In this document: positions 5,442 to 63,700 of the stretch, one piece after another | How positions within the stretch are numbered: the stretch's first letter is position 1 | Layout of the letters: every line of letters starts with the position of its first letter | Assembly (NCBI GenBank): GCA_030062745.1 | Contig: CP099854.1 | Span: 15,350,876 to 15,414,875 of the forward strand | DNA: 64,000 nucleotides | Source of the DNA: Capitulum mitella | Taxonomy: Eukaryota > Arthropoda > Thecostraca > Pollicipedomorpha > Pollicipedidae | Direction: 5' to 3' | Translations under genes and position numbers: made by a program | The notes under the pieces: model-generated | What the model was told of the DNA's origin: nothing | Seen by the model: only the letters and a program-made list of their open reading frames with translations | The model's database searches: none

Positions 5442-5993
5442 TGACATGTCGCTGGTCTGTTGACTGCAGTCTGTAACATGTCGCTGGTCTGTTGACTGCA
5501 GTCTGTGACGTGTCGCTGGTCTGTTGACTGCAGTCTGTGATATGCCGTTGGTCTGTTGACTGCAGTCTGTGAAGTGCCTTTGGTCTGTTGACTGCAGTCT
5601 GTGATGTGTCGCTGATCTGTTGACTGCAGTCTGTGACGTGTGGCTGGTCTGTTGACTGTAGTCTGTGATGTGTCGCTGGTCCGTGGACTGCAGTCTGTGA
5701 CGTGTCGCTGGTCCGTGGACTGCAGTCCGTGAAGTGTCGCTGGTCTGTTGACTGTGGTCTGTAGCATGTCGCTGGTCTGATGACTGCAGTCTGTGAAGTG
5801 TGATTGGTCTGTTGGCTGCAATCTGTGATGTATCGCCGGTCTGTTGACTGCAGTCTGTGAAGTGCCTTTGGTCTGTTGACTGCAGTCTGTGACGTGCGGC
5901 TGGTCTGTTGACTAAAGTCTGTGATATGTCGTTGGTCCGTTGACTGCAGTCTGTGAAGTGTTGCTGGTCTGTTGACTGCAGTCTGTGACGTGT
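5442..5993. repeat. 32-bp minisatellite abutting a splice acceptor
   Basis: About 17 tandem copies of a 32-bp unit containing tcgctggtctgttgactgca. The array runs to within a few bases of the acceptor ctgctgcag (6001-6002) of the secreted-peptide exon. The unit itself contains a gactgcag element resembling that acceptor. It creates long spurious open frames on the minus strand. Confidence 0.9.
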
Positions 5994-6005
5994 CTGCTGC
6001 AGAAA

Positions 6006-9300: not shown

Positions 9301-9304
9301 AGCG

Positions 9305-12895: not shown

Positions 12896-15800
12896 TCACG
12901 TGGCGTCTGAGGCGGTCCGTCGCAGTTCGTAGATCTGCGGAGTCGGGGCGGGATGTCAGACCGCAGCTGGGCCAGCGAGGGCCGCCGAGTCACGGGCCCA
13001 CGGCAAACGGATACCCGCTGACACTGGCGGCAGCCGCTCCACACCCCGGATCAGGCAGCATCGGTCTGCACCTACTCCAGCTCCTATATCAACCCCTATT
13101 CATGGCATTAACAGCTACAAACATCAACGTCCTCATCGCCCAGCCGCATGAATCCATCGCCTCCGACTGTTCCCCGACTGGTCCATCCAACCTGATTCCG
13201 CACAGCGGCCGGCAGCAGCCCGGCAGCCCGGCACAGCCGTCGGCCAGGGCTGGCCATCAGGCCGGACTCACCTGGACGTACGACAACGTCAGGGGGGACT
13301 CACCTGGACGTACGACACCGTCAGGGGGGACTCACCTGGAAGTACGACACCGTCAGGGGGGATTCACCTGGACGTACGACACCGTCAGGGGGACTCACCT
13401 GAACGCACGACTCGTCAGAGGGGACTCACCTGGACGTACGACACCGTCAGAGGGGACTCACCTGAACGTGCGACTCGTCAGAGGGGACTCACCTGGACGT
13501 ACGACATTGTCAGGGGGGACTCACCTGGACGTACGACTCGTCAGAGGGGACTCACCTGGACGTACGGCACCGTCAGGGGGGACTCACCTGGACGTACGAC
13601 TCGTCAGAGGGGACTCACCTGGACGTACGACTCGTCAGAGGGGACTCACCTGGACGTACGGACCGTCAGGGGCTCCCTGGCGTACGACCGGCTGAACGCA
13701 CGACTCATCAGAGGGGACTCATCTGGGAGTACGACTCCGCCAGGCCGGACTCAACAGACTCTGTCAGGCCGGATTCATCTGGATGTACGACCCCGTCAGG
13801 CTGGACTCACCTGGACGTACGACCCCGTCAGAGGGGACTCACCTGGACTTACGACCCCGTCAGGGGGCTCACCTGGACGTACGACACCGTCAGAAGGGAC
13901 TCACCTGGATGTACGACTCCGTCAGGGTGATCATCTGCGGCAGGATGTCCCGCACGTGCAGGTCCTGCAGTTCGTGCCACTTGCCCGTGCCCTGGGCAGA
14001 GGTCAGTGTCAGCATAATGACATTCCGCAGGTCAGCGTCCTTATTAAAAGGAGCTCATGGGGTCCGGCTAATAAGGTCACATACGGTCCATTCCCGGTTA
14101 ACGTCATATGGGTCATTGCTACGGCCAGGAAGAGTCAGAATCAGGCAACAGGTCAACAACAGGTCAGCACCACGCCCATGAGGGGTGAGTGACGGACGGT
14201 GAAGGACCGGACGGGTCAGGGGGCAGACGTCGGTAGGAAAACGCCCAGCGCCACAGTCAGCTGGCCATCGGCAAACGTGGGCCGCTGACGACAATGATAA
14301 ATACCGTGCAACGACGAGACTAGAAGCAGTTACGACGGGGCACCAGGAGACTGGCGACAGCCGAGTTTCTATGGTATATACCGTCCTGATAAACTCCCCA
14401 TCAAAACAGGACATCTCGCCGGGTGAGAGATGTCTAACGATTACTTTCCGCAAGCCATGAACGAGGTGGGAGGTGATCGGAAGGCCGCCGGGTCTAACCA
14501 GCTTACATTATCGGGCTTCATGAGGGGCTCAGAGCAGGACACCGATTAATTACGGCCGAAACACCCATCTGCCGTTAATAGTCAGTCACAGGAAAAAAGG
14601 GTATTTACAAAGTCAGCGCGAAAAAAAAAATTACATATAGCCTCATTGAAAAACGGTGTCCTCCTCCATCCAGACTCCCCTTAACTGCAGTGACACAGCA
14701 GATATCATCCGAAGTACGCCCTCTGGCACAGACGTGTCCCACCCCCTTCACTGATCCTGTGCCGCCTGACACTGCCCCGGGCACACCCTCTGGCACTGCC
14801 CCTGAGCCGCGCGGCCCGGGCACACCCTCTGGCACTGCCCCTGAGCCCGGGTACACGCTCTAGCACCGCCCCTGAGCCCGGGTACACGCTCTGGCGCTGA
14901 CCCTGTGCAGGGTGTGGCAGCGGTAGGTGCCCCGGCCGGCGCCTGGCTCGCCGTCGTGCACGATGTTGGTGAGCAGGTCGTAGACGGTGTCGCCGGCGGC
15001 GGCCGCGCAGTCCGGGGCCAGGTACTCGGCCAGGTCGATCGACTGTCGACAGGTCACGCCGCAGGTCAGGGCCAAGGCCACAACCAAGGCCACGGCTAAG
15101 GTCACGCCCAGTCACGCAGGCCAAACTCAAAATTTCTGTCATGGCTGACGCCAGGTCTGCGGCCAAACCAAAGGTCACGTCACACGTGAGGTCACGGGCG
15201 AGGTCACGTCCGGTTCTAGGCCAACTTGCGCGCGGTTTCAACCAGGTCCCGGCACGGTCTACGCCATCTCGCGGTGAGCCCAGGTCAGGGACGACGGACG
15301 GTCGGCGCCCGTGCCTGAGTTTCGGCAGGCGATGTTTGATGGGAGCACACGGCACAGCGCAGCTACAACACTCTGAGCAGTGAGCACACAGCACACGGCA
15401 CAGCGCAGCTACAACACTCTGAGCAGTGAGCACACAGCACACTGCACAGCGCAGCTACAACACTCTGAGCAGTGAGCACACAGCACACTGGACAGTGAGC
15501 ACACAGCACACTGAATAGTGAGTGCACAGCACACTGGACAGTGAGCACACAGCACACTGGACAGTGAGCACACAGCACACTAGACAGTGAGCACACAGCA
15601 CACTGAGCAGTGAGCACACAGCACACTGGGCAGTGAGCACACAGCACACTAGACAGTGAGCACACGCACACTGGACAGTGAGCACACAGCACACTGGACA
15701 GTGAGCACACAGCACACTGGACAGTGAGCACACAGCACACTGAGCAGTGAGCATACAGCACACTGGATAGTAAGCACACAGCACACCGAGCGGTGAGCAC

Positions 15801-18800
15801 ACAGCGCCGCAGCGCCGGGCGGCCGCCCCGTCACCAGCCGGGCCCGGCAGCCGCCGCTGTCGGCGCGCCCGTTCACACGTCCCGTGAAATCCCCGGACCG
15901 GTGAACTGGCCCAGCCGTCGGCCCGGGCGGGAAAACCACTGCACCGAGCGCCCCACGCAGCAGCGTCAAAACGACACACGGACGCACCTGCCCGCACGCC
16001 AGCCAACAGGGGTTCCGGCCCCACGCTCCGGCGCGGCACGAGAGGATTCCTGCGAGACACGATACCGCTGCGAGTGGACCGCACCGCACGGCTCAAAAAC
16101 AAGGACCGTCAAAAGACGGCGCCGTACTAACCTTGATCGGGAAGTTGACGATGGTGGGGTTCTTCTCGACGAAGAATGTGTTCTTGGTGAAGCGCTTGAT
16201 GCAGAGGATGAGGTAGGGCGGCAGGCGCGTCAGCTCGAACCGCTTGACGATCTCCTCCTTGTAGGTTTTGTACTCGCGCTCATCCCGGCCGTTGAATTTG
16301 TTCAGGATCGTGAACAGTGACACCTGGCGGCAAAAAGGGGAAGCACAAATAACGCAGAGCCGGTGCAGCCACCATTGCTCAAATTTGCAAAACATGGAAA
16401 ACCACGATTACCAAATTTTTCTAACTACACAGCTTACATTGCAACAAGTTGATCTGTACGATATGATTTTCGCGTCACTTGCATCCTTCTGCACCAACTG
16501 AACGTTTCTCATAGTGTCCCGGATTATGGTGATAATATATTATCAATATACTGTCTCTCAACACATGATCAATATATATTATCAATATCAATATACTATG
16601 ATCTGGACGGACTGTGACAGATATCTGATGATACACCAAAATGCCGACCGCTGTCGACCGTCTGACCTGCGGGATGATGTTCTCCTTGAGCTCGTCCTTG
16701 AACAGCGGCGGCGGTGGCAGGTCCGCCGTCAGGTACAGAAACGGCGTCTCCTCCATCACCTCCTGGAACCTGCCGTACAAACAGACCAGCTGACACGGGA
16801 CAGACAGCCGTCACAGAACAGTCGGCTGTCAGAGCAGTGGGCTGCCACAGAGCAGTCGGCTGTCACAAGGCCGTCGGCTGTCACGGAGCAGTCGGCTGTC
16901 ACAGAGCAGCTGTGCGAAGGTCCACCAGCCTGAGCCCACACCAAATGACCGACAGTCCTCTCCGGGGCACGGTCCCGCCCCTGACGGGGACCCAGCCCAC
17001 TGAGCGGCTGCTCCCGGCGGCCGGCCGAGCCTCCGCGGACCACTTACTCGGGGGAGCTGAGCAGCTCGCGCTTCTGTTCCACCGTCAGCTCGGCGGGCGG
17101 CATTTTCCTGCTGTACACCCGCATCCGGCCCTGTCAGCCCGCAGGTGAGGTCAGCCGATCTCACGTCAGCTTCCCACATGGGCCGCGAGTCGGCCCATGT
17201 GGCCCATGTGGCACATCCATGTGGCCCAGTCGGCCCAGAGCACATCCTCCTCCGACGTTCGATTCCGGCCTGATGAAGGCCCGTGTTCTGTCATATCCGC
17301 AGCGCTTTCCGCTGTCCCCACACGACCATATCAAGACGCCGTAACAACACACCCAGGTCAGCTGAAGAGTTCAGTACAAACGAGGATAACCCGCATTCCG
17401 TGGGGATCGAGAAACGCACCTGGTCACGTTTCGTAGTTACACAGCGATGTAGCTACATGAAGCCATGAGTCATCAGTAATGGATCAAATCACACCAGTTC
17501 ACTGTAAATTCGCATCTGGCCGTCACCTGAGTAGTCAGGTGAAGTCAGGCCACATAATTACAGAGCTGGATCGGGTACGCCTCCCGCCAGCTCGCACCAC
17601 ACCAATCTGTTGGTACCATTATAAACGCACGTATCGCGGGGCTGAGCTCGCTCTGGCGGCCGTTCGGCTGTGGAGGACGGACAGAGGGGCCGGGGCCTCA
17701 CCTGGAACGTGCGGTACACGATGGAGGAGTCGCGCTTCTTGGTGCCGCCCAGGGCCATGTGCAGCGCGTTCAGGAACCACGACAGGAAGCTGACCGGGTC
17801 GCCTGTCCGAGGACCGGGTCAGGTCAGGTCAGGTCAGACCGCGCCAGGTCCAGCCAAATCAGATCAGGCCAAACCAGATCAGGTCACGGCAAATCAGAAC
17901 AGATCAGAACGGGGTCAGTAAGGTCACAGCTGATCACGACAGAACAGGTTTCGGGTCCAGTCAGGCCGGGTCGGATCAAACCTGATCAGAACAGATCAGG
18001 TCAAGTCTACAGTGGCGACAGGTCAACACAGAACTTGGGCCAGGTGTGGTCATACCACAAGGCCACTACAGGCGCACGACAAACGCTGAAACACGGCGAG
18101 CTGCCCTCGCCGTGACGTGACATCTCACCGTGACGGAGGGTCTCACAGCACATGTCCTGTCACGGTGCCGAAACGCGACAGCAGTGAGCGGTAGCGACCG
18201 GGAGTACAGACAGACAAACATCGATACACGACCGATCAATCTTTCCCTCCGGAAATACCTACAAATCCCAACAGGTCACAATTCCATTTTGCCAACCCCT
18301 GAACTGTTCTTCTCGCCTTCAAAGTCACCCAGAAATCCAAAATTTCACTTATTTTAAAAGGAACCCTTACTCACTTTGGTGACCTAAAAGCATGCATAAC
18401 CTCGAGTAGTAGACATGGAATGCTTCCCGCCCTTGTTCTGAAACCCGAAACATTGTCATGGTCACGAAGCAACTCAGATCTTGACCAGCGCAGTCTATCC
18501 CTCCCCCACCCCCGCCGGTGATCTGAGCACCGCCCTCACCCTGGTCGGTGAACTGGAAACGCTTCTTGCTGCAGAGCACCACCGCCTGCAGCATCTCGTG
18601 CGGCGACACATGCGCCTTGAAGTTGCGCGGGTTCCACAGTTTACGGACCAGCTCGCCGAACCTGTTGGACGTCATGCTCACCTCAGACGGCTTATTGTTT
18701 GTTAACACACATTGCCAACTAGCCACTAACAGTACTAGTCAAAGTCACAAGCAGTAAGAAATAAGACAAAAGCAGTACGAAATAACGGCAGGTACAGTTC

Positions 18801-21800
18801 CAGTCTCAGGACAGTCTCAGTTTCACTCGGACGTGGACGAATTTATGGACGGAATAATGCAGAATTTTTGTTTTTAGGACTACGATGACCACTTCCATTT
18901 TTACGCCGAAAATCAGAAGAACCAAGGTATGCCCAGGCCACATCATGTCTCACACGCTCGGCGACGTCCGACCGGGGTAGGTCACGTCAAGACAGCTCAG
19001 GTCACGTCAGGTCGACGTCAGCTCCGGCCAATCCGAGTCAGGTCAGTTTGGTCCATGTCAGCACTCAGTCCGCAGAGGTCAGGCTACATCGTGTACATAT
19101 CATCCGGATCACACCACGCCAGGCTGGGCTGCCACTGTGCTCCACCACAGTCCACCTCAGTGGACCAGCAGCTGTCCATGACGCTACCAGCCTTTAGCGC
19201 CATCGTCCCATGCCGAGCGGCTACAGCCTTCACCCCTCTCCGACTGACTGCAGATGTACACACCCCATAACGAAAGTAGCCAGCCAGCGTCACAACACCG
19301 CTCGTCCATCACAGCGCGTACAACACCCGGTCAGCGGTCGAGGGAAGGCCTGCCATCCGCGGGGGCCCGGACGGCCGGGGCAAAGCGGCCGCCGCCTCGC
19401 TGACCTTTGCACCAGCAGGAACATGTTGTCGCCCGGTGGCGGCTTCATCCAGTTGTAGTTGCTCTCCTGCAGGAAGTAGTCCCGGACGGGCACGACGTTC
19501 GACAACGCCTGGGGAGGCGGAGGACGGCTCGATACCATCGCGCCGACCGCAAACACTGACGCCGACACATGCACACACACCCACCCACACCCACACCCAC
19601 ACACACACCCACACACACACATGTGGGCTGGTGACAAGGGCCGCGTTCAGAAACTAATCTGATCACTTAACAAGTTACCTAACAGCGTCAAAACATCATT
19701 AGGAAGCAACATCGATTTTCAATCGGAATAAACGGAAATGTGACCTTGCTAAAAACCGCCGTACGGAAGCAAATGGTAACTCTGTAAATGATGTTCAGAA
19801 GTTTACAAACGCAGCTAAGGTGTCAGAGACGGAAATGAGAGGGCTGGCATGGCTTCACGTCACGTGCGTAACAACAGAAGAACGAGCGTCACCATGCGGC
19901 CGCCGTGCGGCAGTGACGTGACGCGAGAGTCACGGACGACGTCACGTGACGTCGGTGATGCGCCCCGGCGTCAGACACGTGACCTGATGCGACGCGACGC
20001 CACGTAACGTAAAGTAGCGCAACGCAACGTGACGTGACGTGGCGAGAGGTGGCGCGAGGCCTACGGCCCGACGGTGGCGTCACCTGGAAGATGACGTTGC
20101 AGTAGTCATTAGCCTTGATGTTGTTGAGGCCGACGGTGCCCGGCAGGTAGTTGGAGCCGTCGTAGGCGCGCGACAGCTTGTCCTGCGAGTCGAGCCGCGC
20201 GATGGCGTCCGCCTCGAACGTCGGGTTCAGCACGTACTTGATGTCCTCCAGAGACGAGTCTGTGGGCCAGTCAGGGGACTCAGCTCAGCACCGTCTGAGG
20301 CCGGTCAGAGGACACAGCTCAGCACCGTCTGAGGCCGGTCAGAGGGCTCAGCTCAGCACCGTCTGAGACCGGTCAGAGGACTCAGCTCAGCACCGTCTGA
20401 GACCGGTCAGAGGACTCAGCTCAGCACCGTCTGAGACCGGTCAGAGGACTCAGCTCAGCACCGTCTGAGGCCGGTCAGAGGACACAGCTCAGCACCGTCT
20501 GAGGCCGGTCAGAGGACTCAGCTCAGCACCGTCTGAGGCCGGTCAGAGGGCTCAGCTCAGCACCGTCTGAGGCCGGTCAGAGGACTCAGCTCAGCACCGT
20601 CTGAGGCCGGTCAGAGGACTCAGCTCAGCACCGTCTGAGGCCGGTCAGAGGACTCAGCTCAGCACCGTCTGAGGCCGGTCAGAGGACTCAGCTCAGCACC
20701 GTCTGAGACCGGTCAGAGGACTCAGCTCAGCACCGTCTGAGGCCGGTCAGAGGACACAGCTCAGCACCGTCTGAGGCCGGTCAGAGGACTCAGCTCAGCA
20801 CCGTCTGAGACCGGTCAGAGGACTCAGCTCAGCACCGTCTGAGGCCGGTCAGAGGACTCAGCTCAGCACCGTCTGAGACCGGTCAGAGGACACAGCTCAG
20901 CACCGTCTGAGGCCGGTCAGAGGACTCAGCTCAGCACCGTCTGAGACCGGTCAGAGGGCTCAGCTCAGCACCGTCTGAGACCGGTCAGAGGGCTCAGGTC
21001 AGCACCGTCTGAGACCGGTCCGAGAACAAAGCTCAGCGTCGACGCAGCGACAGCGTCGTTCACACTGGCCAGCACGCAGTGAAAACCACCTGAACAACTG
21101 TTGATGAAGGCTGTTTTTATTGCTGAATAATAGCTGCCTAAGGCGATTTTGATGTCACTGTGAAAAGATCTTACTCTGGTGGTTTCTTAAGGTCACCTTT
21201 AATGAAACACCAGTGCTTCAGTGAATAGTCTGTCCAAACACCCAATTTTCGTCTCCAGCCCAAAGACAGCCTTCGAAGCAACACTCCAGAGTGTTACGAT
21301 CCACACATTGCATCGGGAATGTTGCCGCCAGGACCAGGGAAGGACCCTGCAGCGTGACTTCGTCAGCTTCTCACCTATGATCTCGTACTGGTCCGGCAGA
21401 CAGTAGAAGCGCAGCGTGTGCAGGTTAAGGAACACGTGGTGTCCCTCGCTGACGCTGTGGGTGTAGGCGTGCGTGCTCTGCCCCCGACCTGGCGAACGGG
21501 TCAACGGTCACCGCTCTGTCCACGACATGGACAACAGTTCAACGGGTACGGCTCTGTCCAGGACATACACCTGAACAACAGGCACCTGCTCCAGACCAGT
21601 CGTTACTGGGACAGGGCTTCTTTACGTTCTTAAACGGCAGCACACTGCGCATCTCTCCACAGGAAAATAATGACATACTACAGGATGTCACAGTCAACAG
21701 TGTGATTACAGCACACTGCACATCTCTCCAGGGCAAAATAATGACATACTACAGGATGTCACAGTCAGCAGTGTGATTACAGCACACTGCACATCTCTCC

Positions 21801-33226: not shown

Positions 33227-33959
33227 AGGGTACCTCCGCCTGCGGAGATGTTACTTTGAGATTAGGGATGCACCGGATATCCGGTCCGGCCGGATATCCG
33301 GCCGGATATTAGAGATTATCCGGTATCCGGTATCCGGCCGGATATTTTTGTGATCCGGCCGGACACTGCCGGATAATTAACCTCCCGGTGTACAATCAAG
33401 ACGGTGCTCTAATGTCTGCGTCCAAAACCGTTTCAGGGGAAACGTGGCTTGTTGTGTTAGATTGTCGATGTAACTGGCAGTTCCACGTCGGTCTGGAGAC
33501 CTTGGAACCAATTCTTTTCTGTATTGGTCCGGCAAGGTTCGGACATATCTTTGCAAAAATGGGACGCAAGTTCAAAACTGTGAAACAATAGCCAGCATGC
33601 GGTCAGTAGCTCATCTTGTGATTTATCATCTTCCTTTTTTCGAAATATTTCTTATCTTTCTCAAATTCTGACACAAATGCATAAAGGAAAAATATAAATT
33701 GTGGGCACTGGAAAATGAGACAGTATTTAAAGTCATACCATAAGCACATTTATTACTGTATGAACATTAAACTTTGCAGAAATGTAGTCATAACCGTTGC
33801 GGTCAGTTTTTGCTTAATGGATCATCTTCATCACCTCTCATCTGTCGGCAACACGCACGCGTCTGGGTACGCGCACCAGCATTTAACGCGGTATCTCTAG
33901 ATCCAGAGCAGCGATCACCTGGCTCATCCAGCGCTTTAGGGCGACTTTGGATGTTACGT

Positions 33960-35800: not shown

Positions 35801-36189
35801 ACAAGCTGTGGGCATTTTTTCACTAATTTTTTCAGTTTCTCATACTTTTCTTTTCTATTCGGTCTTTTCGGTTTCATTATTTCAATAGAAATAGTAAATA
35901 AAAACATATAAACATAATATCCGGTATCCGGCCGGATATCCGGCCGGATATCCGGCACCCGGATCCGACATATCCGGTATCCGGCCGGATCACAAAAATC
36001 CCGATCCGGTGCATCCCTATTTGAGATAGATTCTACCTTTTAAGATTTCAGGTGTGTGCTACGCTACTGTTGCTGTTGAAAGATATGCCGTTTTGACCTA
36101 AATTGAATTGGTAGATGCTGTCGTACTTGTTTATTTTTCTTTTGTTTTTCTGTGTCAGTGACTATTAATATATACTTCTCTAAAAAACT

Positions 36190-39247: not shown

Positions 39248-42200
39248 ATGCTTCGGCTTCGATTGAGAAGTTTCCTGCAGATGTCCTATGGTCGCTCCAA
39301 GGCGCCTTACCCTCCAAAGGTGCCAAATGTTGCAATGAACAGATGTTTTTCCATGTATCCGGTCGACGACGTGATGTTTGGCCTGGATGAAGAACAGCAT
39401 CAAGTAAGTGTATTAGATTCAGTCATGGGAATTTGGATTTTGCGCATTTTTTATCGCGAGTTTCAGATGTTTTCAAATACCTGTGTCAGGCATTTCCAAA
39501 ATTGTAATCCCACTCGATGTGATACGGATAAATATAGAAGAGAAGTATCCTTGGTTATCCTGATCAGTGATGAGGGCATATTTTGTAAATGGATAAGGAT
39601 TAGAAAAAGTGCCTTTTGGGCATAACAGAACATTTGGCATCATTGTGAAGATTAATGGGTGAATTAGTGGTGTGAATGAGCAGTGTTCAAAGTTGGTAAC
39701 ATGACTGCTTATTCATGATGCCAGTATTGTTATGCTGCTGTTTTTTCTTTTGTGAAACCTACAGTTTTGTATAACATAGGGTCATGCATTGGACTCCCTG
39801 CACTGTTACTATAGGTATCCCTGCATGCCTGTATGTCTGAACCATATGTCTCTCCTTTCAGTTACGAGAGTCCGTGAAAGGATTCTTACAGAAGGAGTTG
39901 GCTCCATATGCTGATGAAATTGACAAGAAAGATGATTGGGAAAATAGAAAGGTAACATCTTGCAGCATTTCCTACCATACCATTTAGTTTTCCCTGTTAT
40001 GCAATCACTGTTGAAACAGAGTTACATAATGTTGAAAAATGGTGGAAGTAAGCTTTGATAGACATCATTCATATATGTTTTAAGTGTTGTGAAAATGCAT
40101 TTTATTGTATGATGAACAATATCCCTGAAAGCCACTAAAAGAAATTGTAGGTTACAACTTACAAACCATTTTTCTTGAAATGCAGGCTTCAGTGTAGCTT
40201 AGGTTAATGTTAAGTAACTATACTATTGCATGGATATGGTATGGCCTGGAAGGTATGAAAAGCACTAAAAATCTTGCTGGACATCTGAAATGAATGCTGC
40301 TAAAATGCTGTCAGGCATTGAAGCAAAACCTGGCCAATTTAAAGATGTATTGTATTCCAAACTGTTCCAGGGGTTCTGGAAGAAGCTGGGAGACATGGGA
40401 CTGCTTGGAATCACAGCATCCCCGGACTACGGTGGTGCTGGTATGGGGTACCTGGACCACTGCCTGGTGATGGAGGAGATGTCCCGGGCAGCTGGTGGCA
40501 TTGGCCTGAGCTACGGTGCCCACTCCAACCTCTGTGTCAACCAGATCAACCGCCATGGCACTGCGCAGCAAAAGGAAAAATTCCTGCCAAAGGTACAACT
40601 GTCTGAAGAGCATTATATTTTGTGTGATCACTTTGCCATTTAACAATGCTTGAGTCAAAAACACTCTCAGATCTTGAAGGAAGCTGGAACATTTTCACAC
40701 TTCTTGTGTCATTGGCTCAAACTGTTCATTGGTAAATTGAAAAACATGTTTTTAATGTTACAAAATCATGATTCCATCATTTTTGTCATGGAATATTGTG
40801 TTTGCTGGGTTCCAAAAGAGCATATTGCTGGTGAAGTAAATGCCGCAGCATTGGCAATTGAGCTGAATTTAGATTATTCCAGAAAAGAATGTGTGTATGT
40901 AGGTATAGAAAGAATGTAAGAAATGCTGAATTTCAGCTGGGTTTAGGTGGAAAGGGGTCCTGCTTGACTTATGAGAAAATTTTATTGGCTCATGTGTAGA
41001 GATCATAGCTGGAGATCCTGGAAGGGTTGGGATCCAGACTCCCCAATATTCAGGGATTTTACCATTACACCTATGGCAGTGATTGGAAAGAAATGGTCTG
41101 AAATCCTATGTGGACCTCCCAAGAATTTTCAGAAATCTCCAGCCATGGTAGACATGAACTCTTTTCTTAGGTTTATACTTAATTTTAATGTTCTTGTGGG
41201 AAGGGTCTGGCTGCAGTCATCCAGTTTCCACATGTTCTAATTTTTTAAGGGTCACTGCTCAGTTTGTGCCCAGTTTGTGGAGGCCACAATTTGACATGTG
41301 CCATTCATAGGTAGTATCATATCCATTTATGCCATCTTTCAGCCTTGCCATTGCCTTCTGTTTTGTGCCAAGTGTACCCTCTTGCAGCTGTATCATGTTC
41401 CATATGTCTGGTTTCAGCTGTGCTCTGTTTCAGCTCTGTGCCCTGTTTCAGCTGCATCATGCTTCAGCTGTGCCCAGTTTCAGATGTGCCCTGTTTCATG
41501 TGTCCTATTTCAACCATGCTGTGTTTGAGCTGTGCCCCATTTCAGCTGTGCTGTGTTTTAGCTGTGCTCTGTTTCAGCTTTGCCCCATTTCAGCTGCATA
41601 ATGTTCAAGCTGTGTCTTGTTTTGGCTGTACTGTGCTTAAACTGTATCCTGTTTTAGCTGTGCCCTGTGCTTCAGCTGCATCATGTTTAAGCTGTGCCCT
41701 ATTTGAGCTGTGCCATGTTTCAGCTGTGCTGTGTTTGAGTTGTGCCCTGTTTCAGCTGTGCCCTGTTTCAGCTGCATCATGTTGGAGCTGTGCCCTGTTT
41801 CAGCTGTGCTGTACTTCAGCTGTGCCCTGTTTGAGCTGTGCCTTGTTTCAGCTGTGCTGTGTTTAAGCTGTGCCATGTTTGAGCTGTACCATGTTTCAGA
41901 TGTGCTCTGTTTAGGCTGTTCTGTGTTTAAGCTGTGCCTTGTTTGAGCTGTGCCATGTTTAACTCTGTCCCCAGAGGGCGATATGGTATGGCCTGATTCC
42001 CTGCTGGGGGCGGATTCGGCCCCCTTGAGATCTCGAGAACTACTTTCCCGATTTCATTGCAAAAAATGGCATTTGAAAAGGGTGGATAGAGGGGAGTCAG
42101 AAAATTCAAAATGGGGATATTTTTAGACTTCTTATAACTCTGTTGTTTATGAACCGATTTTGATGAAATTGGCAGGAATCGAGAGATTATGAATAGGGTT

Positions 42201-45200
42201 TTTACCATTCATCCATACATTTGAAATTTTGAGAGGGTTTTGAAAATATGGCAGTTTTTCAAAAACTGATTTAACAAAAAGTTAAAACCACTTTTTTGGC
42301 TTTTGCTAGTCATGCTATGGTGAAGAAGTGCAAATCGTATCATAATGTTTGTATAATGTTAGCATAGGCAGTGCCAGGGACATGAAAAAGGGGGAACTGT
42401 CACAGTCACATGTTCATCAGGTCAGCTGATGATCTTTGACCTTAAATGGCCTCCAGCTACCTGAGAGTCACTTGGAATGATCTCGTGTGCATTTAATATT
42501 ATTTGAAAATGTTTCCAGTCATTTGAATTTACTTTATTTCTGAAGTTCCATTTTATGCCTGTTGTGATATAGGGTAAATGCATTGACATTTTAGGTCATA
42601 GCCCGTGATCCGACCTGATATGGAGCTGAAACCTGATACATAAGTAGAGGGCATCCTTCTACGACATATATATTTCGGGATTGGTACTTGAAAAAACAGC
42701 GCCGAAGTTACTGCAGTAAAACCAAATTTTGACTTTTCACCTTGACCTGACCTTGCAAAGTTACCTCAGATTGACAAAATTATATCTGCACATTGCCCAC
42801 CTATTTAGCTATACATCCATGTAAAGTTTTAAGTTTTATCTAAAAAATGCTGTTTTGGGCAGACATTTTCCTTTTACCCTCAACATGGCCAAAAATGGCC
42901 TGAGGTTCCTCCCAAAAATGTTGCCTGGCTCCGCCCCTGAGCAAAATGGGATTTTGGAATTTTGTCATGGCACATAGAAAGAATAGCTAGGAAAAATCAC
43001 CAAGTTTCGTGAAACTGTGTTTAAAAAGCCTGGAATTGGCAAGTAAAAAACCGAGGGGGGCGGATTCAGCCCCCTCTGCCGGAATAGGGTTAAGAATATT
43101 TGTATGACTTGGGATATAACATTATCCGGTTTCAAATTCAGATTACACAGGGACATTAAATACATACATACAGGACACTTGCTTTAAAAACTGACATAAC
43201 AGAGGGTACCCTTCTACGTGATATGTAGTCTGGGTTTGACATTTGAAAGAATAACATAAAAAATTTCCTATGAGACTAAATTTTGACTTTTGACCTTGAT
43301 CTCACCTTGTGAAGTAACCTCAGACAAACGAAATTGTATTTGTATATTCCCCAATTATTTACCTATACATCCATATAAAATTTTATTTTTTTTCTTAAAA
43401 ACGCTTCTTTTGGCAGTCATTTTCCTTGTACCCTCAACAGGGCCAAAAATGGTCGGCATTGTGCCACATTGCCCCTGAGATGCCTCTTAAAAACGTTGCC
43501 TGGCTTCACCCCTGAGCAAAACAGAAATACGAAATTTTGTCGCAATATGTAGAAAAAATAGCTGGGGAAAAGCCACCAGGTTTCGTGAGGCTGCGTCGAA
43601 AACCCTGGAATCGGCAAGCAAAAAACTCGAGGGGGGCCGATTCAACCCACCCCCTGCTGCTAACAGGGTTACGCTGTGCCCTGTTTGAGCTTTGCTTTGT
43701 TTAAGCCATGTCCTGTTTGAGCTGTGCCGTATTTCACCTGTGTTGTGTTTAAGCTCTGCCATGTTCACCCTGTGCTCTGTTTGAGCTGTGCTGTGAGCTG
43801 TGCCATGTTTGAGCTTTGCCCTGTCTGAGCTTTGTCATGTTTCAGCTGTTCCCTGTTTCAGCTGTGCTCTGTTTCAGCTGTGCCCTGTTTCAGCTGTGCC
43901 ATATTTGAGCTGTGTCCTGTTGGGCTCTGCCCTGTTTCAGCTGTGCTGTGTTTCAGCTGTGCCCTGTTTCAGCTGTGTCATGTTTCAACTGTGCCCTGTT
44001 TCGGCTGTGCCCTGTTTCGGCTGTGCCCTATTTCGGCTGTGCCCTGCTTCAGCTGTGCCCTGTTTGAGCTGTGCCCTGTTTCGGTTGTGCCCTGTTTGAG
44101 CTGTGCCCTGTTTCGCCTGTGCCCTGTTTCAGTTGTGCCCTGTTTGAGCTGTGCCCTGTTTCAGCAGTGCCCTGTTTCAGCTGTGCCCTGTTTCAGCTGT
44201 GCCCTGTTTCAGCTGTGCTCTGTTTCAGCTGTGCCCTGTTTCAGCTGTGCCCTGTTTCGGCTGTGCCCTGTTTCGGCTGTGCCCTGCTTCAGCTGTGCCC
44301 TGTTTGAACTGTGCCCTGTTTCGGTTGTGTCCTGTTTCGCTGTGCCCTGTGCCCTGTTTTTCAGTTGCCCTGTTTCAGCTGTGCCCTGTTTCGGTTGTGT
44401 CCTGTTTCCCCAGTGCCCTCTTTGCCGTGTTTCAGCTGTGTTCGGGGGAGCATTTCGGGGCGCTGGCGATGTCTGAGGCCGGCAGTGGCTCGGACGTGGT
44501 CTCGATGAAGACCAGAGCGGAGCGTCGGGGCGACGGCTACCTGCTGAACGGCACCAAGTTCTGGATCACCAACGGACCGGTGGCCGACGTCCTGGTGGTG
44601 AGCGGCCGGCGCGGGCGGCACGCGGGCGGCCATGTCCATGTCCGAGAATGCGAACATGTCCGGCAATGTGCCGCGCTGCCTCCGCCGGCCGGTTCACGTC
44701 CAGCCGTGATGGGGCGGACAGATTTTGGCTGTGCCCTGGCTCTGTAGGCGAATGTTGTGAAAATGGAAGCTTGGATGGATGGAGGTTGGTGGATTACGCC
44801 GAGTGGAGTCACTCGTTTTGCCAGGATTAGCGTTGCTTCAGAGGGAAACAGCGTGAATTGGTGTCGTTGCCAGATCTCATCAGACATGGCTAGATGCTGA
44901 CTCTGCGATGCACCTGATGGCGGTCGGTTTTCCTGACCTGTGATCGTCGACCACCGGCGGCTGAGTGCAACAGTTTTCTCACGTCAGATGGCGGACGTAA
45001 ACTCCCCTCTCAGAAGGAAGGCCTGCGGCCCCGCTGTAACCAGGGCGAGGTTTGTCTGACCCGGCCCTGCCTGCCAGCCGGGCTATGACAAAGGCAGCTC
45101 AGTCTCAGCTCCCCCCCCCCCACCCGCTCTCGTAGGCGTACGCCAAGACGGACCTCGCCTGTAAGCCACAGCACGGCATCACGGCCTTCCTCATCGAGAA

Positions 45201-48200
45201 GGGCATGGCCGGCTTTTCCACCTCGCCGAAGCTGGACAAACTGGGCATGCGGGGCTCGCCCACCTGCGAGCTCGTCTTCGAGGACTGCTTTGTGCCCGGT
45301 GAGTCAGGGTAGCACTGCTTCGTGCCCGGTGAGTCGGGGTAACACTGCTTCGTGCCCGGTGAGTCTGGGAAACACTGCTTCGTGCCTGGTAAGTCCCGGG
45401 GAACACTGCTTCGTGCCCGGTGAGTCTGGCCTTGAGTTCTGTTTCATGCCTGGTGAATATGGGGAGGGCTGAGACTGCCTCTTGCCTGGTGAGTGTGTAT
45501 GTTGGTGGGGGAGGGGGCAGGGGGAGTAGGCGTTCCATGAGGAACTGTTCAATGGCCAGGTTAGACGAGTGTTTCCTAGACATTGCCCGAACTGCGTTTT
45601 TAGAGACCGCCTCTTCTTCTTCTCTAGACGAACGTCCACGGCGTCCACCACTCACCTGCCGTTTGTGGGGGACAGTTGCTACCCAAGCATGGCCCATAGT
45701 TACTGTGGGGCATGACTGTCCGTACTTTTTTAAAGTGAGGAGGTTGGGAGCCATTCCATTCTATACAACACCATGGAGTGTATGGTTAAAGTGTGTACAG
45801 CTGGTAGGGCGACCTTCCTGCGGGCTGGTATATCCATGGCTGTGTGTCTGACGCGTTTGTGCGAGGATTCTGTGACAGTGGAGCGGCGGTGATGGGCGTT
45901 TGAGCCGTTGAGTTGTTTAAGGATTGTTTAGGATCTGACGAGTGCTTACGATAATGCCTGAAATGGCCTGGAGCTACCGAAAAGACTATTCAGGTTTGAT
46001 GAGTGATGGTAATGGTTTATGTTTTGTTGTTGAAAGCAGAGGATGATTGCGACATTTTGGGGGCACCAAAGGTGTCCTGCAGTAGTAGAAGGCTTTGCAA
46101 AACGATCGTAGAACATGGCTGATGGACAGGACAGTAACCCTGTCCGGCCCTTGGTCAGCCTCCGTGTAACTTGACGTGACCTGACCCTTGGCCTCTGCCT
46201 GGCAGATGCCAACGTGCTGGGCGACGTCGGCAAAGGTGTGTACGTGCTGATGTCGGGACTGGACCTGGAGCGACTGGTGCTGGCCGCAGGACCGGTGGGG
46301 TACGTCTGTCTCTGGTCTGCATATGTTTGTCTCCAGCCTGTGTACATCTGTCTCTGATCTGTATGCATCTGTCTGTCATCTGTACTCATCTGTCTCCGGT
46401 CTGTATATATCTATCTTTGGTCTGTGTTCGTCATTATCTGGTCTCCCGTGTACATCAGTCTCTGGCCTCCTGTGTACGCCACCCTGGCCCCTTGTGTACG
46501 CCAGTCTCTGGTCTCCTGCATATGTCAGTCTCTGGTCTCCTGTGCACGTCTGTTTCGTGTCTCCTGTGTACTTGGGTGGAGACGACGGTGGCGTGGATGC
46601 GGCCTCCGCCACACCAACTTCAGAAGTTCGTGTGCCAAACCACACCAACTTTTAACAGAGATTGTTGCCGAAATTGTGTGTGGCATGGAACCATCCACAC
46701 CCAGATTTTACTTTTTCGCAGAATTATGGGGTTCACAATTAAAAATACATAACACGGCACAAATAGACAGATTATCGAACAATGTCCTCATAGAGCACTG
46801 CAGTCCCGTGCCATTCACTGTGTTCCTGGCCCAAAAGCCCAATGAGTCCCCAAAACAGCTAGACACCCCTCAGGCTAACTAACTAGGAGTAAATACTTAC
46901 GTACGCACCACCTCTCAGCTAAAAACCATTGGTGTGTACAGTGGAGCCAAAAACAAACTACCTGAGTCAGCTCCCAACCAAATGTCATTTACAGTAGTAC
47001 CCACATGTTAATACGATGTTAATACCGTCCAGAAAATAAATAGTATCGATCTTACTTCCTACAAAATGTTTTCAGCATAGGAGCTGGCCTGCGAAATACA
47101 ACATATGTATACCAGCCTCACTGGGCGTTCGTTTAATTGGAGAAAGGTTGCCAAAAATGTAAACGTTTTCAGTAACCGGCGTTAAGAGCAGCGGTCCCTG
47201 CACGCTGCACATGTGAAGGATGTGCAGTGTGCGACGTTGCGTTCACTGCACTCTTCAGTGCTGGTTTACACATTGCTCCAGTGTAAACCTGCAAATGACT
47301 AAAAACAAAAGTTTTTTTCATCAGGTTTATGAGAATCGAAAATTAGGCAGTTGGAATCCGGTGGGAAAATAATTGGGAGTGAGAGGAGAAACTGAGTATG
47401 TGGAATTGACCGGACTGATCACACCACCAGTCATACAACACCGAACCATAAAAAATATCCAACCATGCCTGTGTACCTCTTTTTCCGACCTCCATCTTTG
47501 TAGGTCTGTCTCTGATCATTCTGTGCACCTCTGTCTCCGATCTGTACTCGTCCATCTGTGATCTGCTTCTGGTCTTGTCTCTGGTCTGTGTACGTCTGTC
47601 TTTGATCTATGTACATGGTGGCCTCTGAGCTTCTGTAGCTGCTGATGTGGGGTTCCGTCAGAATGATGACCAGCGCTCCGCTGACGGCTGCTGACGTCGT
47701 GTATCATTGTGTGTGTGTGACGTGGAGCCGCACCCTCCGCAGACTGATGCAGGCCGCCTGTGACGTCACGTTCGACTACTGCCACCAGCGCAAACAGTTT
47801 GGACAGCCCATCGGCCACTTCCAGCTCATGCAGGTCAGCACTGCTGGTCCGCAGCAGTCCGTTGCGGTCAGCACTTCTGGTCCGCCGCTGCGCCGTGTGG
47901 TCAGCTCTGGTGGTCCATGGGTGTACGGTGTAGTCAGCACTGCTGGCCCGTGGCTGTACGGTTTAGTCAGCACTGCTGGTCCCTGGGTGTATGGTGTAGT
48001 CAGCACTGCTGGTCCCTGGGTGTACGGTGTGGTCAGCTCTGCTGGTCCTGGGTGTACGGTGTGGTCAGCACTGCTGGTCCTGGGTGTACGGTGTGGTCAG
48101 CACTGCTGGTCCCTGGGTGTCTCCAAAGTCATTCACAGATGGTGTCTGTGCTTAAATAAGCTCCGAGATCGTTTTGAAACATGCGCTGCCGAGTGCCCTT

Positions 48201-55520: not shown

Positions 55521-55522
<2 letters not shown>

Positions 55523-55559
55523 ATGTGTGTGTGTCAAATTCGTGTGTTATGCATGTATT

Positions 55560-57750: not shown

Positions 57751-60700
57751 CTAGCTGGGCGGCGGCGGTGGCGGCGCCGCCAGCAGGTTCGGCAGGCCGG
57801 CCTGCGCCAGCATGTTGAGGTCCGGCTGCGGCCGGCTGGGCTGCGGCGGCGGCGGCGGCGCGCCGAACTGCTGCCACGGGTACAGCGACGGCGGCGGCAC
57901 GGAGGGCGGTCCCACCGGCCGGGGCGGCGGCACCTGCGGCACCGGCACACACCGTCAGCGGCGCGGCACCCGCAGCAGACCATACACGGCACACACCGTC
58001 AGCGGCGCGGCACCCGCAGCAGACCATACACGGCACACACCGTCAGCGGCGCGGCACAGGCAGCAGACCATACACGGCTCGCTTCGTCAGCGGCGCGGCT
58101 TAGGGGCAGCAGACCTACACGGCACAGGGTCATTCGGCGCCCAGACCATACACGGCACACACCGTCAGCGGCGCGGCACAGGCAGCAGACCATACGTCGA
58201 CGGACGGTCCTCTCACGGCGTAACGTCATCGGCTAGCCCAGAGACGGCACTTCATGACAACTGTTTGGCAATCAGCCACAAGATGGGTAGCTACAGCCGT
58301 GAGACATCACTGCGTGATTAGAAAATGTAATTTTACGTGTTGAGGACACCAAAAAACGTTCTCGTCTGAAGCATCGTTTTGTACTCAAGCTCGCTCTAGT
58401 TCCTAAATAAAATATCTACATTATGAACACTTTTGACGCATCCCGTAACAAATAACGTCTCCCTCCCTACACAGGAACACGCAGTTGTACCATCTTTCAC
58501 TAACCTACACCAAGAATGTTGAGTAAGACCTGTATCTTCCGTTTCAAGTGCTTCGTAAAATTTCGTGTGATAAAAGAAAATTGGTATACTTAATAACATT
58601 TCGTGTCACAAAAGAAAATTGATCTGTTTCAAAACATTTCGTGTTATAAAAGAAAATTCGCAGCGCTGGAGGTCGGTGTCAACACCACTGTACGTGTGAC
58701 TCCACGGAACAATGTCCACCATAGAGATGAAGAGAGACAGACACACAGGAGACAGACATACAGACAAAGAGTTCGCGGGGGAAGAGAGGTCACTGACCGG
58801 GCCCGGCGGCGGAGGGGCCGACATGGGCGGTGGCTGCTGCTGCCAGGGGGCTCGCCAGCCGGAGCCGGCCGGACCGGCCGGCGGCGGCGGCCCGCCGCCC
58901 TGAGAGCTGGGCGGCGGCGGCGGCGGCGGCGGAGCCTGTCGGCACACAGCAGCAGCGCGTCACACGCCATCAACACAGCAGGCCATCAACACACCAGGCC
59001 GTCAAGCACGGGTCGGGTCCGGGGAACCAGCCGGGAAACTGACTGTGGGCCAGACACGGTGCATGAGAACCGCACAGTCATGTCGGACAAGATGAAGACA
59101 TCTGACCAGGGCGGCCAGACTTAACCGAGCGATGCCAGTGACGTAGGAAGAACTCATACAATTAAGCACGCATTTCCTTCCAGGTTTTTGTTTGTTTTTT
59201 TTTTCTAATCATCTACCACAACCCTGTTCAATTGGTACACAGTTTCCGATTCACCACAGCTCGGTACACGGCCTCGGCGTGCACCCCCCCCCCCCAACTC
59301 AGCAACCGGCCGCTGTGACAGCGCACCCGTCCGTCAGTCCGGCCCGTCCAGAATCACCGCTCGGCGCCTTCTCACCTGGAACATGGACTGGGTGGGCGGC
59401 GCGGTGTTGAACGGCCCGGCCGGCGGCGGGCCGGGCCGGGCCGGCGGCGGCGGCGCCTGCGTGTTGGCCGGGCCTCCCCAGCCGGGCGGTGGCTGCCGGA
59501 CGACAGGGCACGGTCAGGGTCAGTACGGCCGACACAGGCGGCAGTCACGCGGACACGGGCGGCTCGGCTCGGCTCGGCTCGGCTCGGCTCGGCTCGGCTC
59601 GGCTCGGCTCGGCTCGGCTCGGCTCGGCTAGGCTCGGCTCGGCTCGGCTCGGCTCGGCTCGGCTCGGCTCGGCTCGGCTCGGCTCGGCTCGGCTCGGCTC
59701 GGCTCGGCTCGGCTCGGCCCGGCCCGGCCTGGCCTCCTCCGTACAGCCGCAACAGCTGTGTTTTAAAAGCGATCTCGCACTGGGCCGCAATGATTCTGTT
59801 AATGGTTAGTTCAGTGGGCATTATCTTCTGTATGGCATTCGAAATTATATGCTCTGTTTGCAAACCATTTGCCCAAACACAACGAACACGGCGAATTTTC
59901 CACCCTGTTGGCGACCAAGTTGGCACTTTGTGCCGCTGCCGTGTACGAGTACGGCACAATCCACTGGTGAGTGTCAGCATGTGGCCTATCGTCCTCACAC
60001 TTTGTGACGGCAGGTGACTGTGCTTCCTGGGCCAGTGTGATGTGTGACCTGTCTGGCGATGTAACTAATGGTGTGACCAAGTGTGACGACGTATGACGGC
60101 GTGTGTCAGTGTGTGACAGCATATGATGGCGTCACATGCGTGACTGTATGTGACAGTGTGCAACGGTGGTGCGTATCGGTATTTGACAATGTGTGACGGT
60201 ACATGGCAGTGTTACCCGTCTGACGATGTGACTGTGCCGCTGCGTGACGGCGTTACCTGTCTGCTGACGGTGACGCCGGTCGCCGGCTGGCCGGTGAGCG
60301 GCGGCGGCTGGGACAGCAGCGAGCGCGGCGCTGCCGCCGCCGGGCTCGAGTTCACCGCAGAGGAGCCCCAGCGGTTGGCGCGCGAGCCGTCGCCGGTGCC
60401 CAACGCGCTCGTGTTGCTGCCCCTGTACACAGACGGACATCGGGCTGAGGCCGCATACACGGACGGCGGCCCCGGAACGGACCGACACACGCGGCGGCGG
60501 GGCGGCTCAGGGCCGGCCGAGTCGCCACGCAGAACAGCGCCGAACAGCGGAACAGCTGAACAGGCGGAACAGCGCGCTCAGCGCGCCGCGCCTGCAGAAC
60601 GGTCCAACCGCGCCGAGACCAGGCACCGGCTGCACTCTGCTCAGGTGGGACGGTCTCCATTGTCGGCCCGGACAGTGCAGCCGGCCAGACCAGCCCAAGG

Positions 60701-63700
60701 CCGGGCCGGCACCACACGGGACGGGGACGACCCCGGGCCGGACGGAGCCGAGGCCGGGGACGGGGAGGGGGTGAGTCGGCTCCGTACTCACGTCAGAGGG
60801 CCCATCAGCGGGCGGGGCGGCTCGCGGCGCTCGAACGCTGTCCGGCCGCTGTAGCGGCTCAGGTCTGCGGAGGCAAACAGACGGCTCAGGTCAGGCCACA
60901 GCCGCAGGCGACACGGCTCAAACACTGCTGCACACGGCTGCCCGGACAGACCCAGGTACCGGCACGCTTCCGTGGCTCAGGACACTGAAACTCAGTTTTT
61001 GATGCTCCATAATTACCTAAAAAACCACCAATTTTTCTACACTCAATATCCTTTTAGTTACTACTAGTTCAGATAGTTTTTTGCATCAAACGAAACAATT
61101 CTGAAACGTCGGCCGACGTCCAATTTCCCTTAAATTGTCACGCAACAACGATCATTTGACCGGAATTTCAACAGCGCCTCAGAATGGGTTTCGGCTCGCC
61201 GGGCCGAGTGCCGGCCGTGACCGGAAACACGTACTTCCGCCGCCGTATCCGGAGCCGGAGCCGCTGCGACTGTCGTCCTTGCGCGGCGGCGGGCCCTCGC
61301 CGAGCTCAGCCATCAGCGACATGTACTGCAACAACACGGAGACGTGTGTTCCCCAACTTACGAGCAGCTATTCACGATCGCACGAGCCGCGTGGTAAAAA
61401 CAGTATTTACAAAAACTTCTTTACCGAGCCGTGGTCGGGATAAACGCTTCGAACGTACTGTACTGTAACCACAAGCAGGGAGCTCTACACCGCACTGTAC
61501 CGCAGCCAGAATCAGGGCCCACTACACCACAATGCAGCGGACACCAGTCCCGTCTGCGAGCAGTGGCCGAGATTCGGCTGACCAGGCAGAAGGCCGGCAG
61601 AACGGCGGGCAGGGACGCCGCTCCTCGACCGTCGGCGAGTGGACCGCGTCAGTCTGGTCCACGACAGGCCCGGACAGACCGGGGCAGGGGGCGCACCTCC
61701 TCGTCGATCTTGGTGCGGTCTCCGCCGCCCGAGTCGCCGGCCGGGCCGTCGCGGCCGCGGTCGCCGCCGCGCCGCTGCCGGCAGTCGCGGGCGATGTGGC
61801 CCGCGCCGCCGCAGCTGTTGCAGATCACGTTGTTGGTCACGTTCGGCTTGTCCGGACACTGAGGGCGGCCGAGCACAGCGTCAGACACACACACACACAC
61901 ACCGAAACAGGACACAATGACGCACTCATTACAGACCGCCTGCCCTGCTGACAGCCGTACGCGCCGAGGCCAGGAGACCCTCAGTAACTGGCTATTCATC
62001 GACGCTTTCGACCACCAGCGTCTTCTGGCATCACCCACCTTTACGGCGGCGGCCGGTGCCAGCGGAATGGACCAATCCCACCACCTGTCTCCAATCGGGC
62101 ACCCTTCTGCCCGGCAGTGAACACGGCACCAATCACCCCCCAATACCCACCTAATGAACCGAGGCCAGCTGCCCGCGGGCCCGACCCACACAGCCCGGCA
62201 CCTCCCTCTCATCAGAGGATCTGCCGGCCGCCTCACCTGCCACGACTTGTGCGAGGTGGCGCCGCAGTTGTTGCAGCGTGGCCCATCCTGCTCGCGCAGC
62301 GTGCCGTTCAGCAGCGCCAGCTCTCGCAGCTGGTTGCGGCGCAGGTCGTTCTGGCCCTCGGGCACCTCCACGCCCTGGCGGATGATCTCCTTGATCCGGT
62401 CCACGGCCCGTTTCACGCACTCCGGGTTGATGGACGAGATGAGCGCGTGCAGCGGCTCGTCCTCTCCGGGCATCGGCAGGCCGTCCTTGCGGCCCACTTT
62501 ACCCTCCTTCACCGAGCCCTTGCCGCGGATGATGATCTTGGCGCCCGACTCCTTCTCCAGCGCTACCGGCGCGTCAACGGCAGGTCAGGCCTGGTTACAA
62601 TCAGCCCGGGTCAGGTCAGGTCAGGTTAGGCCAGATCACGTCACGCCACGTCCGGTCAGATCTGGTCAGAAGTCGGAACAGGTCGGGTCGAAGTCAGGCC
62701 AGGTCAGGTCAAACCAGGACAGGTCAGGTCAAACCAGGTCAAGCCAAGTCAGGACACGTCAGGTCAGGTCTGGCCTAGTCAGGGCTAAGAGCCCATAAGA
62801 GCAAGGTAAGCAAAACCCTTGGCAAACACAGCCGTCTGCTTAGCGACAATGCGGAGGTTGTTACGAACAGAAACAAATAAACCAAAATCCTGCAACAATC
62901 ATGATTATTACTGCCTGCCAAGAGGCATGCCGAGTCTTTGTGTGAAGCGCAGGTAGCTTTCGCCCGCTGCGCAAGCCGACTCACACTTCAGCGTGTTGCC
63001 ACGCGGCCCGATGAGCAGACCGACAAAGTTGATCTCCGGGTGCTCCTCCTGCGGGATGACGATCTTGTCCGTCACCTTGGTGGTCGGAGGCCTGCCGACA
63101 CAGGAGGCGGACGATCACTGGCCGGCCGCTCCAACCGCGACACCGACACACGGCCAGCCCAGAGCCCCCGACACAACACACTCAACACCGACACACGGCC
63201 AGCCCAGAGGCTCCGACACAACACACTCAACACCGACACACGGCCAGCCCAGAGGCTCCGACACAACACACCAAACACCGACATACGGCCAGTCCAGAGG
63301 CCCCGACACAAGACCGTACTGAACACCGACAAACGGCCAGTCCAGAGGCTCCGACACAAGACCATACTAAACACCAACACACAGCCAGCCCAGAGGCTCC
63401 GCCAAAGACCATACTAAACACCAACACACGGCCAGCCCTCAGGCTCCGACACAACACACTAAACACCGATACATGCAGCCCAGAGGCCCCGAAACAACAC
63501 ACCAAACACCGACATACGGCCAGTCAGAGGCCCCGACACAAGACCGTACTGGAAACCGACAAACGGCCAGTCCAGAGACTCCGACAAACACCATACTGAA
63601 CACCGATACATGCAGTCCAGAGGCCCCGACACAAGACCAAACTTAACACACCGGCCAGAGGTATACAGAGATAAAAACAGTACCGACCGACAGGCACGGA

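Follow-up and report, generated by a model that had tools for sequence, protein, structure and literature searches.

The stretch analysed in the present work (hereafter, the window) comprises 64,000 nucleotides of the Capitulum mitella genome (C16:15350876-15414875; the genome consists of 16 contigs and 477.04 Mb) and harbors three conserved genes, USP39, IVD, and SF1, in whose introns tandem arrays (minisatellites) lie at, or run across, exon-intron junctions. Exons were taken from the sequence and junctions were set by phase and GT-AG signals, which gave 25 introns and 50 splice sites: 11 introns in USP39 (22103 to 12935, minus strand), six in IVD (40593 to 49366, plus strand), and eight in SF1 (63838 to 57934, minus strand), all of them phase-consistent and of the GT-AG type, with the SF1 donor D5 being of low confidence. 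Over their length, the modelled products of USP39 and IVD can be aligned with the corresponding human proteins (USP39: PDB, E 5e-218; IVD: PDB 1ivh, E 1.4e-167). The comparison of SF1 with the human protein concerns the first 228 residues only (E 1.4e-95), and the exons that follow are based on reading frame and phase only. Within this gene, the region 61655-62584 (minus strand) carries two zinc-knuckle-like motifs, the first of which is absent from the aligned PDB chain.

Arrays with a Tandem Repeats Finder (TRF) score of at least 100 were considered strong. Eighteen of them occur in the 25 introns of the window, covering 6,185 of the 20,834 intronic bases, and in ten of them one edge is no more than 25 bp away from a splice site, namely at A1, A2, A7, D10, and D11 of USP39, at A2, D4, D5, and D6 of IVD, and at A8 of SF1 (A, acceptor; D, donor). 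The original prediction, made from the sequence alone, had placed arrays at 11 named sites; eight of these do have an array within 25 bp, whereas SF1 60257 has no TRF array and the one near SF1 63091 is 48 bp off.

The clearest case in the window is donor D11 of USP39 (array 13257..13927, minus strand; 32-bp unit, about 20-21 copies), where the exon ends exactly at 13905 and 23 exon nucleotides fall inside the array (these counts, here and below, are those of unit-junction alignments). Variant copies of CTGACGGTGTCGTACGTCCAG/GTGAGTCCC (the slash marks the junction) come after the real exon end, CTGACGGAGTCGTACATCCAG/GTGAGTCCC. The real exon copy codes for TESYIQ (SEAYIQ in the human protein), while the array consensus would code for TVSYVQ; thus, the copies in the intron appear to have diverged jointly from the coding one. 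Donor D10 of the same gene is adjoined by an array of three 31-bp units (14814..14905, minus strand) whose exon end, 14902, is also exact, with 4-7 exon nucleotides inside (seven in the alignment). The array at acceptor A2 (20265..21037, minus strand; 34-bp unit, 22.7 copies, 95% matches) lies 5 bp from the acceptor named in the original prediction (20259; intron end 20260) and has two exon nucleotides in common with the junction. Two further USP39 arrays had been overlooked: that at acceptor A1 (21475..21566, minus strand; 38-bp unit, 2.4 copies; intron end 21489) includes 14 exon nucleotides, and the degenerate one at acceptor A7 (16768..16909, minus strand; 18-bp unit; intron end 16770) contains no exon copy (zero nucleotides).

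In IVD, the array at acceptor A2 (43673..44423, plus strand; intron end 44435) consists of 48 copies of a 16-bp unit, CTGTGCCCTGTTTCAG, which reads across the junction as CTGTTTCAG/CTGTG.. and shares five exon nucleotides with it, the TRF edge being 12 bp from the acceptor. A second array of the same unit (41411..41960, plus strand; about 34 copies) is located in the same intron, 1.7 kb upstream; the two look like one array that was split or seeded twice, and a comparable pair exists in an intron of the chaperonin CCT-beta gene described below (L029:2057-2251 and 2305-2712). The three IVD donor arrays, all on the plus strand, have exact exon ends and differ in their exon content: 15 nucleotides at D4 (45284..45426; 30-bp unit, 4.7 copies; exon end 45298), a single base at D6 (47833..48120; 33-bp unit, 8.8 copies; exon end 47833), and none at D5 (46301..46571; 21-24-bp units; exon end 46299), where the array starts at intron base 2.

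SF1 provides the weakest examples. The array at acceptor A8 (57943..58195, minus strand; six copies of a 44-bp unit) is 9 bp off the intron end (57934), with a weak GC-rich similarity to the junction. The other array (63140..63634, minus strand; 45-bp unit) lies 48 bp from acceptor A1 (63092) and was scored as not being at the site; the similarity of its unit to the A1 exon is no better than control, and the unit-junction alignments are weak at both A1 and A8. Donor D6 (60256..60257, minus strand) is a splice site in the gene model, and only two degenerate copies are discernible by eye at 60257. The prediction that each unit is a copy of its site therefore holds fully for some arrays and partly for others, and fails at SF1 60257, SF1 63091, and USP39 A7. 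Outside the three genes, an array of 17 copies of a 32-bp unit (5441..5999, plus strand) precedes an ATG at 6006, with a putative acceptor at about 6003; no Pfam match was found there.

To evaluate the copying of exon sequence, the 14 exon nucleotides beside each of 12 window sites were sought in the intronic array and compared with 400 interior-exon controls. The exon 14-mer was copied beyond all 400 controls at three sites (USP39 A1, USP39 D11, and IVD D4), while the controls matching as well were 31/400 for IVD D6, 44/400 for SF1 A8, and 80 to 391 for the other seven. The inclusion of exon bases in the units, as predicted, is thus clear at these three sites and not at the rest.

The arrays differ from one another in unit length, from 16 to 62 bp across loci (78 bp for the double unit of THOC3, see below), and in sequence, which makes independent births likely, in agreement with the original prediction. 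A single transposed satellite was ruled out on the same grounds; an 18-mer from the USP39 D11 unit, the only unit searched in this way, has three exact matches genome-wide (very common words being skipped), all of them inside the D11 array. For that unit, the same result bears on introners, dispersed intron-making elements whose related copies occur in many unrelated genes.

We then considered an independent set of 50 introns (32 from chaperonin genes, ten from an Argonaute gene, three from THOC3, and five from a synthetase gene), joined automatically or by hand. The Argonaute (L009) and THOC3 (L002) genes, both of confirmed identity, come from 10-kb stretches taken at round coordinates. Seven chaperonin-family genes (PF00118) were fetched from 11 listed places, roughly in order of E-value and with the open-frame column seen beforehand; the one on C5 was confirmed as CCT subunit beta, and the other six are named CCT from the family match. 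L034 is a tRNA synthetase gene, ValRS-like according to our reading of its translation; one of its acceptors, automatically set at 4316 (margin 0), was moved by hand to 4262, because both the reading frame and the array point to the latter. The automatic procedure skipped seven joins with profile gaps greater than 14 and left three unsolved (one in CCT_C8 and two in CCT_C2b), plus one more in a second run; confidence is low for CCT_C8 (200,196), for CCT_C7 (262,260), and for two L034 introns (1193 and 3619). A further group of stretches (L021-L023), which extends a GC-rich and array-rich region, contributed zero counted introns.

Arrays built of full junction copies were retrieved in THOC3, CCT-beta, and the synthetase gene. 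In THOC3, the repeat of which was already visible in the translation when its junctions were fixed, the array consists of copies of GTGCCACCACACAGTGTCCAG/GTGAGTACGCCTGG. CCT-beta has about seven variants of CCCTCCCACAG/GCAGCTGATCTACAACTACCCGGAGCAGCTGTTC, counting the real copy, and the peptide QLIYNYPEQLF is identical in its best PDB match. The synthetase acceptor is accompanied by about six copies of CTGTGGCCGACAG/GAGACGGACGGCCGGTACTGGGT, a 62-bp unit including 23 exon nucleotides (by eye). Furthermore, CCT_C13 carries about 15 copies of CACGTCCAAG/GTAGGGG, and a donor of CCT_C7 is followed by 43-bp copies of the last modelled exon end (seen by eye and outside the counts). At three of six sites (CCT-beta, CCT_C13, and THOC3), the exon 18-mer recurs in the array to an extent that none of the 270 controls reaches. 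According to these data, several units copy 14-34 exon nucleotides. None of the ten Argonaute introns contains a strong array.

The placement of the arrays was assessed by permuting array positions within introns, a test that rests only on the introns with arrays. In the window (18 arrays, 25 introns), six arrays have an edge within 10 bp of a splice site versus 1.33 expected (P 0.0011), ten within 25 bp versus 3.24 (P 0.00025; 3.47 and P 0.00035 under an alternative overlap rule), and 11 within 40 bp versus 5.15 (P 0.0026), and six cross into an exon versus 2.54 (P 0.027). Since the window had been singled out for its pattern, these P values cannot be read as coming from a test designed beforehand, and the independent set represents the cleaner one. 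In this set (10 arrays, 50 introns; one acceptor corrected by hand), five arrays lie within 25 bp versus 1.88 expected (P 0.023), seven within 40 bp versus 2.96 (P 0.008; 0.007 uncorrected), and four cross into an exon versus 1.46 (P 0.045). For the combined data (28 arrays, 75 introns), the observed and expected values are 8 and 2.1 within 10 bp, 15 and 5.1 within 25 bp (P 5e-5), 18 and 8.1 within 40 bp, and 10 and 4.0 for the arrays crossing into an exon (P 0.003). Arrays at splice sites are about three times commoner than uniform placement predicts. The band between 25 and 40 bp contains three arrays versus about 3.0 expected, so that the excess is limited to about 25 bp. On varying the score and distance cut-offs, the direction remained constant and P was weaker at some settings (up to 0.43 for the independent set at a score of at least 50 and 5 bp).

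Overall, in 15 of the 75 modelled introns, a splice site has an array no farther than 25 bp away. This frequency may be somewhat high, because the ST6Gal and BTB/psq genes, which lack a strong array, were left out of the models; AP-2 and other genes in the fetched stretches were also left out of the intron counts. Introns tend to be longer where a site has an array within 40 bp (median 970 versus 404.5 bp for the others), and the sites concerned are ten donors and seven acceptors among 27 arrays (counted before the synthetase data were added). No array among the 28 scored reaches both ends of an intron.

Many of these arrays provide decoy splice sites. When scored with a matrix trained on the window's own sites, 11 of the 15 junction arrays contain one or more decoys whose score differs from that of the real site by no more than 2 bits or exceeds it, and four contain no competitive decoy, these proportions being given without a chance control. 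In USP39 D11, 14 decoy donors score as high as the real donor or higher; in CCT_C13, whose real site is weak, 13 decoys do so. The GT/AG columns of the arrays are as well kept as the others (0.966 versus 0.927; 20 columns from eight arrays, P 0.074), which suggests that decoys are not being removed. In the gene models, it is through the exon-proximal copy that the conserved protein is preserved; the other copies would be ignored, presumably through exon definition.

Junction arrays of this sort are a known kind, the 'mirages' of amphioxus. According to PMC3087553, mirages are tandem repeats across exon-intron boundaries, with the same anatomy as those described here and with regular splicing undisturbed; a second source (PMC3902484) adds those in PGBD5 and troponin C. 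The novelty claimed by the original prediction does not hold, in that boundary repeats have been known in amphioxus under this name, with the work cited dating from 2001-2002. The amphioxus mirages (Adh3, the globins BflGb6 and BflGb9, PGBD5, and troponin C) and the present arrays share boundary-crossing repeats at both 5' and 3' ends and many copies carrying AG or GT; units vary from 10 to 160 bp in the former and from 16 to 62 bp (78 bp with the THOC3 double unit) in the latter. The mirage hosts described are cephalochordates, whereas the present host is an arthropod.

In humans, a minisatellite in IFI6 (6-16) was reportedly described by Turri in 1995 as giving multiple splice donors. Like the present arrays, it is a junction minisatellite; it concerns a single locus, and two of its downstream repeat units are used as donors (PMC4526556). 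Internal tandem repeats at exon-intron boundaries occur in human duplicated genes as well; according to PMC2812944, they share with our arrays the minisatellite expansion at boundaries and the units of about 30 bp, but they belong to recent segmental duplications and are tied to new introns, whereas here the genes are conserved and the intron is retained. Tandem duplication across an intron-exon boundary is, in addition, a documented route to new introns (PMC4974935 and PMC3087553); in the potato RdRp case (PMC4974935), the duplication crosses the boundary as here, but a new intron is formed, while our arrays lie inside introns. Among the open-access papers listed by the searches, none dealt with minisatellites at arthropod splice junctions; in the only crustacean one (PMC7878876), the terms appear solely among the references cited. 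Hence, as far as the searches show, what is new is the arthropod host, the frequency of 15 introns out of 75, and the measured enrichment.

The scenario that we favor, and to which we assign a probability of roughly 0.7, is a simple one: the arrays would be mirage-type minisatellites that arise by ordinary tandem duplication in place, the copy nearest the exon continuing to act as the real site. Short pieces of introns and their surroundings would be tandemly duplicated, and the duplicates would then be enlarged and homogenised through slippage or unequal exchange. When the first duplication overlapped an exon edge, the intron would receive the new copies, and the copy nearest the exon would remain the working splice site, because the conserved protein is preserved by that copy. 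Arrays across exon edges could be tolerated since this site is still usable, and the intronic copies, mostly retaining GT or AG, would diverge from the exon copy. Since the enrichment recurs in other genes, the local process acting at exon edges that was originally proposed is plausible; the accompanying idea that arrays are 'seeded exactly' on the sites applies to part of them only, 13 of the 28 strong arrays being more than 25 bp from any splice site and several units having almost no exon sequence.

Several observations weigh against this scenario. Without the hand correction, the independent set gives four arrays within 25 bp versus 1.83 expected (P 0.089) and three crossing into an exon versus 1.43 (P 0.16), and within 10 bp this small set has only two versus 0.77 (P 0.18). 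Six chaperonin-locus arrays with a score of at least 100 lie outside the modelled introns and went uncounted (L028:2519 and 3334; L030:4007 and 5625; L031:92 and 6442); the last one (L031:6442-6612) runs across a donor. At nine of the 12 window sites and three of the six independent ones, the exon side is copied no better than in at least some of the controls. At 75% identity, a local copy exists for 16% of junction-centred 20-mers, 33% of those from intron interiors, and 3% of those from exon interiors; other parts of these genes are therefore more repetitive than splice sites, and the unusual feature is how often arrays begin exactly at them. These percentages, like the copying at the window sites, speak against a strong form of the claim. 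As to exact seeding, 23 arrays from 23 genome stretches were scanned for splice motifs, and no general excess emerged (donor P<0.05 in one, the THOC3 array; acceptor P<0.05 in two). Finally, two downstream repeat units of human IFI6 serve as donors (PMC4526556), so that decoys need not be silent.

The sharp excess requires either more births or a longer life of arrays at junctions. As regards the latter, arrays might last longer when a conserved exon copy anchors them, or repeated sites might aid splicing and be selected; the splice columns are indeed slightly better kept, but this difference (P 0.074) is not significant, and the four junction arrays devoid of a competitive decoy do not fit, so that we consider such a bias possible and on the whole unlikely. 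As regards births, a transcription- or splicing-tied process (R-loops, exon-edge breaks) might preferentially duplicate junctions. The sharpness of the excess, limited to about 25 bp and found at donors and acceptors alike (ten and seven of 27 arrays within 40 bp), would suit this explanation, but survival fits the same data and direct evidence for such a process is lacking, which leaves it rather doubtful. Coincidence, i.e., arrays arising anywhere in the introns of a minisatellite-rich genome and sometimes touching a splice site, would agree with the coverage of the window introns (6,185 of 20,834 bases), with interiors being more repeated than junctions, and with the lack of splice-motif excess in the 23 arrays from random stretches; we regard it as improbable in view of the permutation results (combined P 5e-5; outside the window 0.008-0.023 within 40 and 25 bp, or 0.007-0.089 uncorrected) and of the 14-34 exon nucleotides copied by several units. 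Lastly, that the introns themselves were made from arrays by tandem duplication (the AGGT, or proto-splice, model) is very improbable, boundary-crossing duplication being a documented source of introns (PMC4974935; PMC3087553) but none of the 28 arrays spanning both ends of one.

Other repeats and elements were retrieved in the window and elsewhere. Units of about 151-161 bp occur at 35014-35393 and 51376-51840 of the window, at L005:6013, L011:1223-1678, and L015:7940-8371, and the exact 23-mer GGTCTTTGAATGCATATTTCATA is found, on either strand, at window position 35208 and at L005:6013, L011:1568, and L015:7969; because of this common 23-mer, the units look like one dispersed satellite or element family present on several chromosomes. 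The window also contains arrays of about 143-bp units (52774-53422 and 53675-54998), short arrays with CCGGATATCCGG-like palindromic units (33273-33309 and 35921-35956), and, at 1355-1690 (minus strand) and 36211-36765 (plus strand), remnants of a reverse-transcriptase element with an RNase H-like domain and a weak, sub-cut-off match to DDE transposase families. A likely DEG/ENaC-type sodium channel gene lies at 30742-32001 (plus strand), with a Pfam ASC match at 31423-32001 and an open frame at 30742-31092 devoid of Pfam matches. The Rfam scan gave zero matches, and a USP39 scan over prokaryote contigs yielded no relative.

Outside the window, a 33-bp array (L008:3113-3406) falls within a long open frame, where its translation looks like a serine/histidine-rich protein repeat, so that part of the arrays in this genome may be protein-coding. 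The Chitin_bind_4 family is associated with arthropods; at least 150 cuticle matches to it were obtained (150 of 627 candidates scored), with large clusters at C9:23.42-23.58 Mb, C10:28.58-28.75 Mb, and C13:17.7-17.9 Mb, some of which have many equal scores. The GC content of 20 stretches ranges from 0.38 to 0.60 (mean about 0.49), and the CpG ratio is 0.93-1.17 in 18 of them. Amphioxus, with a GC content of about 0.41, was rejected as the host on account of this mean, of the cuticle domains, and of the two zinc knuckles of SF1.

Decoy-splice-site arrays have so far been reported mainly as an amphioxus curiosity. Now that they are found in conserved arthropod genes, and that their enrichment has been measured in one genome assembled to chromosome scale, they become a phenomenon of wider occurrence, open to testing. 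A broader idea, which we put forward only tentatively and judge unlikely, is that minisatellites arise preferentially at junctions because some process (transcription- or splicing-linked break repair) recognises exon edges, and that this tendency arose or was kept in no fewer than two widely separated animal lineages, the cephalochordates and an arthropod. If true, preferred birth at junctions would keep providing decoys as well as material from which introns could change. Natural loci of this type, where the real site stands next to a dozen or more near-identical ones, would bear on splice-site choice and on the evolution of exon edges, introns, and alternative sites.

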